Positions 6,954 to 53,258 of a DNA stretch of 64,000 nt are shown here, one piece after another; the first letter of the stretch is position 1; each line of letters opens with the position of its first letter. The notes beneath the pieces were generated by a model that did not search any database, was not told the origin of the DNA, and saw only the letters and a program-made list of their open reading frames with translations. This stretch comes from Clostridium sp. (GTDB lineage Bacteria; Bacillota; Clostridia; Lachnospirales; Lachnospiraceae). Made by a program: the position numbers and the translations under genes. The stretch is taken from assembly GCA_023664385.1 (NCBI GenBank), contig JAMPFU010000008.1, positions 1 to 64,000 of the forward strand. The letters are read 5' to 3'.

Positions 6954-6966
6954 GTTTACTTTATAA

Positions 6967-7117
6967 TAGGCAATTGCGAAACTAACATTTTATTAATATA
7001 CGTTGTCGAAAATATACAACTTCAATTCAGGGCACGCTTACGCTTAACGCCCTGCTTATGAACTTGTATATTTTCTCCAACTTACGTTATTATAAAGCAG
7101 AGTTTCGCAATTACTTA
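6967..7117 (-). mobile_element. MITE-like palindromic element, copy 2 (inverted relative to copy 1)
   Basis: A 151-bp element with 17-bp terminal inverted repeats matching copy 1 (TAGGCAATTGCGAAACT and the complement of TAAGTAATTGCGAAACT). Its reverse complement aligns with 1619-1770 end to end with few differences. A 9-bp direct repeat, ACTTTATAA (6958-6966 and 7118-7126), flanks it as a probable target duplication. It is inserted just after a terminator and 27 bp before the next start codon. It holds no ORF, so mobility would depend on a transposase supplied elsewhere. Confidence 0.85.
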
Positions 7118-22229: not shown

Positions 22230-22440
22230 TTGTAGGAAATTCCACTGGATTTCTTATAAGGCAGGATTGAAAATCCTGCTAGGATGCGAACTGCGGCGTC
22301 GAAGATGCTTTGTTCTTTTATAGGAAATTCCTCTGAATTTCCTATAGGCACGCTCCTTATGGAGCTTGCTAAGGTTCGCCCAAAGTGCCATTAAAGTTGT
22401 GGTAGCATAAAGAGTGCCGAAGGCACTTTGTTCTTTTAAC
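22230..22440 (+). repeat. Composite palindromic repeats, left cluster (units U1 and U2)
   Basis: Two successive units are built from the same modules. Module a is an imperfect palindrome (ATAGGAAATTCC...GAATTTCCTAT). Module b is a short hairpin (GGCAGGATT/AATCCTGC in U1, GCACGCTCC/GGAGCTTGC in U2). Module c is a body beginning CGCCCAAAGTGCCATTAAAG and ending in the hairpin AGTGCCGAAGGCACT then TTGTTCTTTTA. U1 (22230-22320) has a shortened body and U2 (22317-22440) a full one. Related units lie at 23948-24143 on the far side of aroE-aroK, and a body fragment lies inverted at 51067-51103. There is no ORF inside. Confidence 0.8.
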
Positions 22441-23947: not shown

Positions 23948-24143
23948 TGGCATCCTGCTAAGATACGCCCAAAGTGCCATTAAAGTTGTGGCAGCATAAA
24001 GAGTGCCGAAGACACTTTGTTCCTTTATAAGAAAGTTCTCCGAACTTCCTTATAAGGCAGGATTAAAAATCCTGCTAGGATACGCCCAAAGTGCCATTAA
24101 AGTTGTGATAGCATAAAGGGTGCCGAAGGCACTTTGTTCTGTA
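23948..24143 (+). repeat. Composite palindromic repeats, right cluster (units U3 and U4)
   Basis: Two more units of the family seen at 22230-22440. U3 (about 23948-24031) has a truncated module b and a full body. U4 (about 24025-24143) is complete: palindrome with TTATAAG arms, GGCAGGATT/AATCCTGC hairpin and body with the GTGCC/GGCAC hairpin. The body copies differ at only a few positions (for example GACACT for GGCACT in U3). The remainder of this gap (24144-24310) shows no gene. Confidence 0.8.
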
Positions 24144-35501: not shown

Positions 35502-35563
35502 AATGGCTGCCATAGGAATGATTTAAAATGCAACTATGCTAAATCATTCCTATGGCAGCCATT
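35502..35563. terminator. Strong bidirectional terminator after fhs
   Basis: A perfect 24-bp stem (starting AATGGCTGCCATAGGAATGA at 35502) has a 13-nt loop. It separates fhs from the convergent small gene at 35580-35828 and can serve both. Confidence 0.85.
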
Positions 35564-50179: not shown

Positions 50180-50965
50180 TCAAAGAGGAACACCAATCTT
50201 GTAAAGCTTGTCGGAGACGGCAAGCTTTTCGTATTTATCAAGATACTCCTGTTTTTTACATGAGACAATATAATTCTTATTGTACTGTTTTTTGATTCCA
50301 TTTTTGTGTAGGATATCCACAGCCTTATTGTATGCAATCGCAGCGGACACCTCGTCATCATATCTGCCGACAAGATAGTTGCCCTTGACATGTATATAGA
50401 CCTCAAAAATGTTTTTACCCTTTACGCTTTTTTGCCTTACGCCCGTATAACCGTTTATAATTTTGATGTTTGCATAACGATAGTCGTCAGGGTCGTTATT
50501 TACCATAATATAATCCCTGCCATAAACAGCAAAGGGACGGATTCCGTATCTGGATAAAATTTTATATTGGCTGCCATAATCGCTGACAAAAAGATAACCG
50601 CCCTTTTTTTGTATTTTATGTGCCGAATAAAAAAATAAATCGTCACGGTCAAATTTAAGGATATGATTTGCGGACATATAATACTCAAAAAAACGGTTCC
50701 TTAAAAAAATGGGATTTGGAATATAAAGTCCGTTAATTACATAGTTGGAAAGCACGATAAATTTGTCGTGGGGCAATGCAAGTCCTGATGAATAATCATC
50801 AGGAGTAAGCTTACAGTCTATAATCGCTTTGCCGTCAAGGTATGCTTTTTTGGCTGTGTCCATACTGTCGTAGCTGCCAAGACTAATATGCTTGCCGTGA
50901 AATGTAATGGAAACCCTGTATGAGACGGAGCCGTCTTTTTTTTGTGTTATGTAAACACCTTTCAT
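50180..50965 (-). CDS. AP2-like domain protein, degenerate HNH-AP2 type
   Basis: A 261-residue protein with two segments resembling the AP2/ERF DNA-binding fold. One lies at the N-terminus (GVYITQKKDGSVSYRVSI, HISLGSYDSMDTAKKAY) and the other near the C-terminus (YTGVRQKSVKGKNIFEVYIH, VGRYDDEVSAAIAYNKA). Between them lies a region shaped like a worn HNH module (MVNNDPDDYRYANIKII), but the canonical metal-binding His residues are absent. Bacterial AP2 proteins are typically homing endonucleases. This copy is probably a DNA-binding protein without nuclease activity. GGAG lies about 10 bp upstream of the ATG at 50965. It is unlike its neighbours in function and may be a domesticated mobile-element gene. 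Confidence 0.7.
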   Translation of the reverse strand: MKGVYITQKKDGSVSYRVSITFHGKHISLGSYDSMDTAKKAYLDGKAIIDCKLTPDDYSSGLALPHDKFIVLSNYVINGLYIPNPIFLRNRFFEYYMSANHILKFDRDDLFFYSAHKIQKKGGYLFVSDYGSQYKILSRYGIRPFAVYGRDYIMVNNDPDDYRYANIKIINGYTGVRQKSVKGKNIFEVYIHVKGNYLVGRYDDEVSAAIAYNKAVDILHKNGIKKQYNKNYIVSCKKQEYLDKYEKLAVSDKLYKIGVPL

Positions 50966-51066
50966 GCTATGTCATTCTCCTGTAATCATTATGGATAAAA
51001 TGTGCTGTTTCTAAAATGCAATTTCCTTGTATCTAAAATTATATAGTATGAAACTATATATATGCA

Positions 51067-51103
51067 AGAACAAAGTGCCTTCGACATCCTTTATGCTGCC
51101 ACA
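51067..51103 (-). repeat. Inverted fragment of the composite repeat body
   Basis: The reverse complement of this stretch (GTGGCAGCATAAAG...GAAGGCACTTTGTTCT) matches the 3' half of the repeat bodies at 22381-22434 and 23988-24021 with about two mismatches. It is 27 kb from the other copies and lies just left of the giant palindrome. Confidence 0.75.
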
Positions 51104-51134
51104 GTAAGCAGTTAAGGCACACATGAAATTACAC

Positions 51135-51592
51135 TGACAAGCCTCTTGTATTTTGTATTTTTATGGTTACCGGCTATCTTTAGCATATTGATATTTTGTC
51201 TTTTCTATTATGTGGGGCACGGACTGCTGTCTGAGGACACAGCCTTATGCAGCCAAACGGTATGTGTATTTTGAATTGCAACCTTTTAAGACCGCAAGAA
51301 TACCTCACATTTGAAATTTGCGATGTTTGATTACATGCTGCTTAAGCGAAACTCGCTTCGCTCAAACAACGCTACGCAGCATGTTTCATCGCAAATTATC
51401 AAATGTGGGTATTCTAAACGGTCTTGTTGACAAATTCAAAATACACATACCGCTTTGCTGCATGGCTGTGTATGAGTTCAAGGGACTGCCACAAGCTATA
51501 ATAGAACGCAGTTTTCTATCAGGAAAAGCAAAATATCTTAATATGCTTAGATAGCACAGATTGTAAAAATACAAAATAAGAGGGGCTTGTCA
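51135..51592. repeat. 458-bp imperfect palindrome (giant inverted repeat)
   Basis: The left arm from 51135 (TGACAAGCC...) and the reverse complement of the right arm ending at 51592 align along their whole length of about 220 bp. Shared blocks include TATTTTGTATTTTTA, TAGCATATT/AAGCATATT, GGTATGTGTATTTTGAAT, GAATACC...CACATTTGA, AATTTGCGATG and CATGCTGC. Arms look about 70-75% alike by eye, with small indels. The centre (51342-51375) holds a further AGCGA/TCGCT hairpin. No ORF of quality lies inside. It fills most of the gene-free region 50966-51791 between the AP2-like gene and the histidine kinase. Confidence 0.85.
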
Positions 51593-51672
51593 TGGGTAAA
51601 CAACTATGTGCCTAAAAATGTTACTGCGACAGACCCGTTAATTTATACAATCATATAGCAGCCATATAACAA

Positions 51673-51785
51673 CCGCCGCCTAAATATAGCTTACAGTTTT
51701 CTTTGTTAAGTGCCAACGTGAAGAAAACTGTAAGCTATATTTAAGCGGTGGTGTCCGTATTGCGGCGATGGTGTCCGTATTGCGA
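51673..51785. repeat. Long perfect hairpin and 20-bp tandem duplication after the kinase gene
   Basis: A 23-bp perfect stem (51681-51703 with 51721-51743, starting TAAATATAGCTTACAG) has a 17-nt loop, extended by CCGCC/GGCGG-like bases. On its right lies a tandem duplication of about 20 bp containing GGTGTCCGTATTGCG (51749-51763 and 51770-51784). It lies 3' of the minus-strand kinase and may end its transcript, though no U-run follows. Confidence 0.7.
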
Positions 51786-51791
51786 CTGTAT

Positions 51792-53258
51792 TTACGGCTT
51801 ATCATAGCTTGTAAGATTTGCAGTTTCTCCCGGCTTGTAGTTTTCAGGCGATATCTTTGTAAGGGTAAATGTAAATTCGCTTCCAACGCCTTCCGTACTG
51901 ACAACATTTATATTTTCGTTGTGGGCTTTTATGATTTCGCGTGTAATGGCAAGCCCAAGTCCTGTTCCCTGCTTGTCACGCCCACGGGAGGCGTCTGCCT
52001 TGTAAAAACGAACCCAAACCTTGTTCAGCGAGTCGGCAGGAATACCACAGCCCTCATCTTTAACGGAGACAAAAATTTTGTCTCTTTTTTCTTCTAGGGT
52101 AATGTAAATATTTTTTCCCGAAGGCGTAAATTTTATGGCATTATCTACGAGGTTGTATATTACCTGCTGTATTTTTGTTTTATCTGCATTGACATAGGTA
52201 TTTTCGCAGTGATTATTCAGTATGAGCGAAATGCTCTTGTCCAAGCATTTTCCCTCAAATGTATTCATGGCGCTTTTCACTAAATCAATAACATCAAAAT
52301 CCTTGGTAATAAGCCAAAGACCGTAGGAGTCGTAATCGTTTAATTCAAGCAGGCTGCTTGTAAGCTTTGTAAGGCGCTGCGTCTCCTTTAAAACGATGTC
52401 AAGATATTTTTCCTGCTTTTCAGGTGGAATAGTACCATCCTGTATTGCTTCGATATAGCCCTTTATGGATGTAAGGGGCGACCTGAAATCATGGGATATA
52501 TTTGATATAAACTCACGTCTGTATTCGTCAAGCTTGGAAAGCTCAGACGCCATATATTCAAGCGTCGATGCAAGCTGCCCGATTTCGTCATTGGATTTTA
52601 TGTCCATTTTTGTTTCAAAGTTACCTGTGGAATATTCCTCGGCAACGGAGTTTATCTTTTTAATCGGATTTATGATTTTTCCTGATATGAGCGCAAGCAG
52701 AATAAAGGCTATTATGACGACAACAAGAAATGGGGCATAGATAGCCTGAAATAAATCTGATTGAACGCTGCTGATTTGGGCGACGCTGGAATGTATAAAT
52801 ATCATTCCGTTTGTAGTGCCCGAGGACTCTATCGGCATAGTTACCGTAATAACATCTTCATTGAACAGACCGTAAAAATCACCTGTAAATGTCTGACTGG
52901 TTGTCATGTCAAACTCCTGGTCAACAAGGAAGATATTGCCAGGGACTTCAACGTTTGTGTCTGTGCCGGCAGAGGCGACTATGATACCCTTGCTGTCTGC
53001 AATCCATATGCTTGCGTCCAGCCTGTCGCTGTAGTATTGCAGGTTCTTCTGCATCGTTTCCAATGTGTAAAGACCAAGGATATAATTTGTTACGGTTTGC
53101 TCGCCTATGAGATACGCCTCGTTTGTAAGAACCTCTGATTTTTCAGCCACCAATGCTTTCTTTGTTGTGTATGTCGAATAAAAAACAAGCAGTGTGAAGG
53201 CGGCGATAAAAATGATAAGGAAACTTAAAAAAATTCTGTCAAATAGGGAATGTTTCAT
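51792..53258 (-). CDS. Sensor histidine kinase
   Basis: A 488-residue membrane kinase partnered with the response regulator encoded just upstream (2-bp gap). Transmembrane helices are at about 9-29 and 168-190 with an extracytoplasmic sensor domain between. HAMP follows, then HisKA with the phosphoacceptor His in FISNISHDFRSPLTSIKGY. The ATPase domain has an N box (NLVDNAIKFTPSG), DEGCGIP and GTGLGLAIT. The architecture resembles WalK/PhoR-type kinases but lacks a PAS domain. Its ribosome site lies in the end of the regulator gene. The stimulus is unknown. Confidence 0.93.
   Translation of the reverse strand: MKHSLFDRIFLSFLIIFIAAFTLLVFYSTYTTKKALVAEKSEVLTNEAYLIGEQTVTNYILGLYTLETMQKNLQYYSDRLDASIWIADSKGIIVASAGTDTNVEVPGNIFLVDQEFDMTTSQTFTGDFYGLFNEDVITVTMPIESSGTTNGMIFIHSSVAQISSVQSDLFQAIYAPFLVVVIIAFILLALISGKIINPIKKINSVAEEYSTGNFETKMDIKSNDEIGQLASTLEYMASELSKLDEYRREFISNISHDFRSPLTSIKGYIEAIQDGTIPPEKQEKYLDIVLKETQRLTKLTSSLLELNDYDSYGLWLITKDFDVIDLVKSAMNTFEGKCLDKSISLILNNHCENTYVNADKTKIQQVIYNLVDNAIKFTPSGKNIYITLEEKRDKIFVSVKDEGCGIPADSLNKVWVRFYKADASRGRDKQGTGLGLAITREIIKAHNENINVVSTEGVGSEFTFTLTKISPENYKPGETANLTSYDKP

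Follow-up and report, generated by a model that had tools for sequence, protein, structure and literature searches.

A multicopy hairpin element, polymorphic between species, in one genus of Lachnospiraceae

Palindromes of half a kilobase are expected to be unstable in bacteria. An imperfect one of about that size lies some 51 kb into the window, by which we mean the whole stretch of 64,000 nucleotides analysed here (Clostridium sp. assembly GCA_023664385.1, contig JAMPFU010000008.1, positions 1 to 64,000), and it raises the question of what it is and how it comes to persist there. A sequence-only reading had offered a structured RNA, a protein-bound cruciform or an ancient non-autonomous element. 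The answer reached here lies closest to the last of these: what lies here is a single copy of a MITE-like element that is non-coding, forms hairpins, has inverted ends, occurs in many copies and is polymorphic between species. Within this one genus, half-kilobase palindromes multiply and swap at gene ends despite the instability expected of them.

The window copy and its relatives

The palindrome first placed at 51135-51592 is real, with inverted-repeat blocks (51135-51163/51564-51592, 51247-51277/51433-51463 and 51297-51325/51387-51415) that are 72-94% complementary, but those limits are too narrow, as homologous copies align from ~51092-51096 to ~51632-51636. Folded as RNA, 51100-51640 reaches -232.7 kcal/mol, whereas 100 dinucleotide shuffles average -126 (sd 5.4), which gives z = -19.7. 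The parts of the window copy are listed below, where family 1 is the family to which it belongs, family 2 a related one, G numbers denote genomes (G000 being the window's own assembly), C numbers contigs (C79 being the window's) and L numbers individual loci. The division into inner and outer units follows the nested plan considered further on.

51092..51636, plus strand: whole family-1 hairpin element, full length with both ends degenerate; span taken from alignment of homologous copies
51096..51121, plus strand: left terminal inverted repeat, 26 bp, from a pattern search of own-genome ends
51607..51632, minus strand: right terminal inverted repeat, 26 bp, identified by its pairing with the left end and its alignment to other copies
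51172..51244, plus strand: putative outer unit, 5' half, including the GTCTGAG loop strand (family-1 consensus half against the L062 outer half, z = 3.1)
51464..51555, plus strand: putative outer unit, 3' half, including the GAGTTC loop strand (family-1 consensus half against the L062 outer half, z = 3.6)
~51503-51521: remnant insertion in the 3' half of the outer unit, a part-match to a larger insertion in G000:C12
51273..51355, plus strand: putative inner unit, 5' half (family-1 consensus half against the L062 inner half, z = 9.8)
51361..51437, plus strand: putative inner unit, 3' half (family-1 consensus half against the L062 inner half, z = 6.7)
51313..51399, plus strand: apical module M of the inner unit (covariance model R1, 77.5 bits, E 1.5e-15, the window sequence being one of the 19 from which the model was built)

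The right terminal repeat of this copy is degenerate, with more than 3 mismatches from the consensus. A coding origin for the element was considered and rejected, since at a 60-aa limit the window copy holds only two ORFs, of 78 and 62 aa, which overlap on opposite strands. Rfam gives nine matches over 50500-52200, all to miRNA models and all sub-threshold, one in the element (29.8 bits against a cut-off of 140) and eight in a neighbouring hairpin; such models tend to match any long hairpin, and a miRNA identity was rejected.

That neighbouring hairpin, at 51655-51769, is separate from the element, so the intergenic region is not otherwise empty as had been supposed. It has 49-nt arms, follows a histidine kinase gene and is also found at the matching place in G001:C5; no second whole copy of it appears among the matches listed for its own genome. 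The gene on the other side (50180-50965, minus strand), described from sequence as AP2-like, has no Pfam match at E 0.001. In the close relative G001 the two flanks of the window copy sit on separate contigs, the left on C11 and the right on C5, which could reflect either a rearrangement or a join made at the repeat during assembly.

Searched against its own assembly, the 458-bp palindrome gives 98 matches that represent at least 40 distinct places (the best 40 of 81 candidates), matches outnumbering places because a palindrome matches on both strands. Thirty of the 40 listed places lie at, or within ~90 bp of, a contig end; the true lengths of these are hidden because the copies stop there, and the element may itself explain the breaks in assembly. 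Full-length copies number six in this genome (C79, C21, C48, C12, C5 and C10), the other five being 86-92% identical to the window copy. The terminal repeat pattern, at up to 3 mismatches, marks 60 ends in the genome, and a reversed control pattern none. Copies range from hairpins of ~45-70 bp (judged by eye) up to 594 bp, while the 13 full-length family-1 copies that we aligned span 524-594 bp.

Seven of 61 genomes, the window's own included, have a match (best 10 or fewer candidates each), and all belong to one genus. Family 1 is carried by G000, G001, G028 and G036, whereas G033, G010 and G005 match more weakly, in the central part of the element. Full-length copies in the three congeneric species G001, G028 and G036 are 87-90% identical. 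The end pattern occurs in 5 of the 61 genomes (outside the window's own, 31 times in G001, 33 in G028, 8 in G036 and once in G034). A covariance model search finds module M in 7 of 117 genomes, again all of one genus (best 40 candidates per genome, stricter filters). A scan of a genome collection for the centre motif yields 16 stretches, spread over four metagenome assemblies whose labels read Lachnospiraceae, Clostridium sp. or Bacteroides sp.; the Clostridium sp. and Bacteroides sp. labels carried by two of the four look doubtful, and these look to be of the same genus as here. Viral contigs contain neither the exact centre motif nor the exact end motif (0 and 0), and a distant blastn search of plasmids and phages gives no match.

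The suggestion of a non-autonomous element is borne out by the 40 or more places in the genome, the inverted ends and the presence or absence of copies at orthologous sites described below. The word "ancient" holds for one part of the history: the spread is fairly recent, with full-length G000 copies 86-92% identical, while the divergence between the arms is older than that spread, because it is common to the copies. The arm mismatches, for the same reason, are features of the element and not decay of the window copy, being largely common to all (97.7% of cells, one consensus structure).

Conserved pairing and the nested plan of family 2

Pairing is conserved between copies. In an alignment (A1) of the 13 full-length family-1 copies, with a consensus structure of 205 pairs, 97.7% of cells are paired against 96.6% in shuffles. 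Double changes occur in 21 of the 205 pairs, where shuffles give 6.9 (sd 2.0) and slid structures 2-5. Further pair types number 51 against 47.2, a value matched or passed in 13 of 500 shuffles. The check for compensatory changes that the sequence-only reading had suggested therefore comes out in favour of pairing, which is kept more often than in shuffled or slid structures.

A further test was made on module M, at the apex of the inner unit, whose layout is a stem, a TTTGATTA loop, a covarying stem, an AACTC/TCARACA loop and a short apex. Its test set comprises 19 of 29 sequences (ten, mostly near-duplicates, were dropped), with the apex removed and N-padded. Over 24 pairs in alignment A4, which was anchored by hand and to that extent leans towards structure, 92.3% of cells are paired against 77.2% in shuffles, double-change cells number 80 against 27.2 (sd 4.0), with only 2 one-sided cells, and the covariation score is 0.468 against 0.200, with slid controls at or below 0.122. 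Automatic alignments of the module (A2 and A3) misplaced the loops and were left out. Further pair types show no excess here (22, shuffles giving 24.6), and pairing in the third helix is limited to 70.5% of cells. Hardly any variation is seen in the loops TTTGATTA, AACTC, TCARACA and TT, in part through selection of the rows, because these were chosen by searches that required most of the loop motifs with 1-3 substitutions allowed.

Family 2 shows how such hairpins can be put together. It consists of related palindromes of ~480-600 bp, of which ten copies in G033 were examined (further G033 copies stand among the matches listed), with relatives in G010 and G005; homology to family 1 can be followed, in the same order, across the inner part. 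Family-2 copies contain two occurrences of module M that face opposite ways, one at the tip and the other further out, where the inner unit lies between its halves. The module apex varies in size: 5 nt in family 1, 15 nt in family-2 inner units and in the single un-nested unit L198 (G010), 90-95 nt where it holds a further hairpin (L063 and L147), and 224-303 nt in outer units. Nesting was tested in full on L062 alone (the other copies were assessed by motif): its inner halves match the inverted outer halves at z = 10.4 and 4.2, while a same-orientation control gives -0.3 and -0.3. The long hairpin of family 2 is a composite, with a structured hairpin unit U situated in inverted orientation inside the apex of another U.

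For family 1, and the window copy with it, the same plan is supported by comparison with family 2, family-1 outer halves matching inverted family-2 inner halves at z = 3.4 and 2.8. Compared inside family 1 only, inner and outer units show no clear likeness (z = 0.2 and 2.3), and neither do those of the window copy itself (z = -0.2 and 1.2); because this family-1-only test is weak the probable nesting of the window copy rests on family 2. A hairpin built inside a hairpin would appear to be an unusual architecture for bacterial DNA.

The outer arms of family 2 present a complication. The cores of the ten G033 copies are 82-92% identical to that of L062; the arms outside them are mutually unrelated, except for short stretches rich in AT and a single weak match (L141/L142). 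In five copies each arm nonetheless pairs with its partner at 47/51, 76/80, 76/83, 68/72 and 68/71 positions (92-96%); in the other five, where the alignment extends into flanking terminators, the figures run from 83/95 to 116/137. When twelve arms were searched against seven genomes (best ~40 candidates per genome), ten gave no match beyond their own locus at E below 0.001; for the L141 arm there are two further weak partial matches, and the arm of the G010 copy is common to four other G010 places. What relatives have at orthologous sites is either a simple terminator or a long hairpin of another kind (by eye and fold). The G010 counterpart of the L142 site has two terminators around a core-free hairpin that by eye resembles the G033 arm, which fits either a hairpin that was there before the insertion or one that has lost its core. 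An inverted duplication of the target may be the source of such arms, yet no arm was seen in single copy at orthologous sites (by eye and fold, the intergenic DNA there being diverged) or elsewhere. The arms may have been there already, may have been brought by the element or may be products of template switching.

Gene ends and differences between relatives

Gene context was called with a simple ORF script (at least 70 aa) at 48 fetched sites, of which 24 lie in tandem gaps, 16 in convergent and 5 in divergent ones, 2 fall inside a small ORF and 1 is undetermined. The 13 full-length copies are found between convergent genes in 8 cases and tandem genes in 5. Most sites (33 of 48, and 11 of 13 full-length copies) lie no more than 30 nt past the 3' end of an ORF; the window copy is not among these. 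AAAA stands directly outside the terminal GGG(G) at 73 of 130 distinct ends, against 11 of 130 in an interval further out, and TTTT at 1 of 130. At the level of the family, the element's ends thus carry the A-run/GGGG...CCCC/T-run signature of a predicted bidirectional terminator. The window copy is degenerate at its ends and has lost most of this signature, and a simple terminator scanner, whose rule covers loops of 3-8 nt only, finds none inside it.

Comparison of flanks with congeners shows that the copies come and go. In all nine analysable sites, six with full-length copies (G000 C10, C21, C48 and C5; G001 C24 and C6) and three with shorter ones (G000 C24, C39 and C9), at least one relative lacks the copy in question. 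(Eight of 13 joined family-1 sites were analysed; at the remaining five the flanks in relatives are missing, not adjacent or weak.) At the C10 site, for example, there is a short gap in G001 and a hairpin of ~53 bp in G028, and G036 has neither. The lengths at the C48 site are 531 bp for G000 and ~154 bp for G001; in G028 it is occupied by a short hairpin, and G036 lacks the element there. Different hairpins occupy the C5, C39 and C9 sites in a relative, and at the G001:C24 site G036 has 479 bp of other DNA. Copies in common are seen as well, with G000 contigs ending at the G001:C24 and C6 sites and G001 having an element at the C5 site. Empty sites in relatives thus contain a small palindrome, another hairpin or none, and because they vary in this way they leave the targeting of hairpin tips unproven.

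Explanations and related hairpins

We consider it probable that this is a mobile, non-autonomous hairpin element with a nested plan, tolerated at gene ends as a terminator and mobilised in trans through its folded strand. A putative enzyme supplied in trans would recognise that strand by the conserved mismatched loops, and the element would settle in or beside hairpins at gene ends, for which it would have a preference. Insertions there would be tolerated because the GGGG...CCCC base with its T-run could act as a bidirectional terminator, and repeated insertion at hairpin tips would give rise to nested giant hairpins. Pairing would be kept by selection on the module together with template switching at replication, and the shorter copies would be internal deletions that retain a terminator hairpin. 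The copy-specific arms of family 2 count against this account in that insertion of U alone does not explain them. A whole class of transposing hairpins, each with the tip of another hairpin as its target, with the folded strand, picked out by its conserved internal loops, as the form that moves and with a near-perfect palindromic arm left by each insertion, is conceivable, though we hold it doubtful. No report of nested bacterial hairpins or of a hairpin-into-hairpin target rule was found in searches of the open-licence full-text literature; if hairpins do insert into hairpins, the rule would be without a precedent found there, and the element would provide a naturally occurring model for single-strand transposition, the stability of palindromes and terminator turnover.

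Some of the evidence can also be read as the work of replication itself. According to PMC8794818, template switching can create perfect stems in one event, and mends as well as makes them; the long hairpins described there resemble ours in their near-perfect stems, paired changes and few intermediates. A palindromic terminator could have been enlarged in this way, with local inverted copying to homogenise its stems and recombination to spread the copies. The copy-specific outer arms, paired at 92-96% in five of ten family-2 copies and with ten of twelve confined to their own locus in seven genomes (best ~40 candidates per genome), speak for such a process, as do the long hairpins of other kinds that relatives have at these gene ends and the 2 one-sided cells beside 80 double changes in module M. 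It nevertheless fails to explain one 0.5-kb sequence at 40 or more places, and common mismatched loops would be erased by copying from the opposite arm; the element, unlike the hairpins treated in PMC8794818, is a dispersed family with unpaired loops in common. We judge this explanation unlikely. An ordinary MITE moved by the DDE transposase of an insertion sequence that is absent from the genome or unassembled seems to us no better a prospect. The 26-bp inverted ends, shortened derivatives and intergenic placement all suit it; palindromy along the entire length does not, the longest flush direct repeat at 19 copies averages 1.5 nt against 1.9 in mismatched pairs, so that target-site duplication is not in evidence, and no inward-facing ends more than ~0.6 kb apart occur among the fetched loci, the assembly being broken at most copies.

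Least probable of all, in our estimation, is a family of structured non-coding RNA genes dispersed by transposition and retained for the function of the RNA. Covarying stems with conserved loops are what it would lead one to expect, and paired columns do diverge less than unpaired ones (0.061 against 0.133, the unpaired set including gappy columns). Against it stand the reduction of many copies to their ends, the lone Rfam match to a miRNA model (29.8 bits, cut-off 140) and promoter-like sites that are not in excess (5 against 3.8 in shuffles). One-sided changes comprise 62 G-T against 29 A-C cells, or 30 against 24 column types, from which a bias towards RNA of one strand is not clear.

Set beside known systems under the preferred reading of a mobile hairpin, the element has partial likenesses to several. 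Bacterial MITEs such as Correia, RUP and Nezha have inverted ends and shortened derivatives and vary in presence between relatives. Measured against MITEs as generally known, the element is alike in its terminal inverted repeats, lack of coding capacity, multiple and shortened copies and presence or absence between relatives, and unlike them in having no target duplication, palindromy from end to end and structured internal loops. With intrinsic bidirectional terminators it has in common a GC-rich stem base, a T-run on both strands and a position close after ORF ends, but it is multicopy and polymorphic between species and has a stem of ~200 bp. REPs, the elements that go with RAYT transposases, are, as set out in PMC3733652 and PMC3686654, extragenic palindromes of 20-40 bp in many copies, with a proposed role in termination; the element resembles them in being a non-coding, extragenic, multicopy palindrome, but its full copies of ~0.5-0.6 kb and even its shortest hairpins (~45-70 bp by eye) exceed that size. 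The GTAG or CGTC tags that PMC3733652 ascribes to REPs occur in the interval outside 4 and 0, respectively, of 130 element ends.

Several other repeats were noticed in passing. A third repeat, GTGCCTTCG...CTTTATGC, is found at 22405-22426, 24111-24132 and 51075-51096; the first two copies fold with a downstream GGCACTTTG, and the last adjoins the palindrome on its left side. Sequence from this left flank also has matches in G021 and in G000:C48. A different hairpin element, ~145 bp long and bounded by TTGCGAAACT...AGTTTCGCAA, is present in two copies of opposite orientation at 1620-1770 and 6965-7115, and at 35502-35563 a spacer of 14 nt separates the arms of a perfect 24-bp inverted repeat. 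Beyond the window, L218, L221, L239, L240, L243 and L244 form one more family of long hairpins, again located at gene ends (in G003, G009, G013 and G018), with a GCGCGRCAGGG-like loop and GACCGTC near the tip. L237 and L242 belong to another hairpin family, CAAACCGTTTG...GAGCGAGAGCGTGTTTG, and L237 seems to consist of two nested copies.
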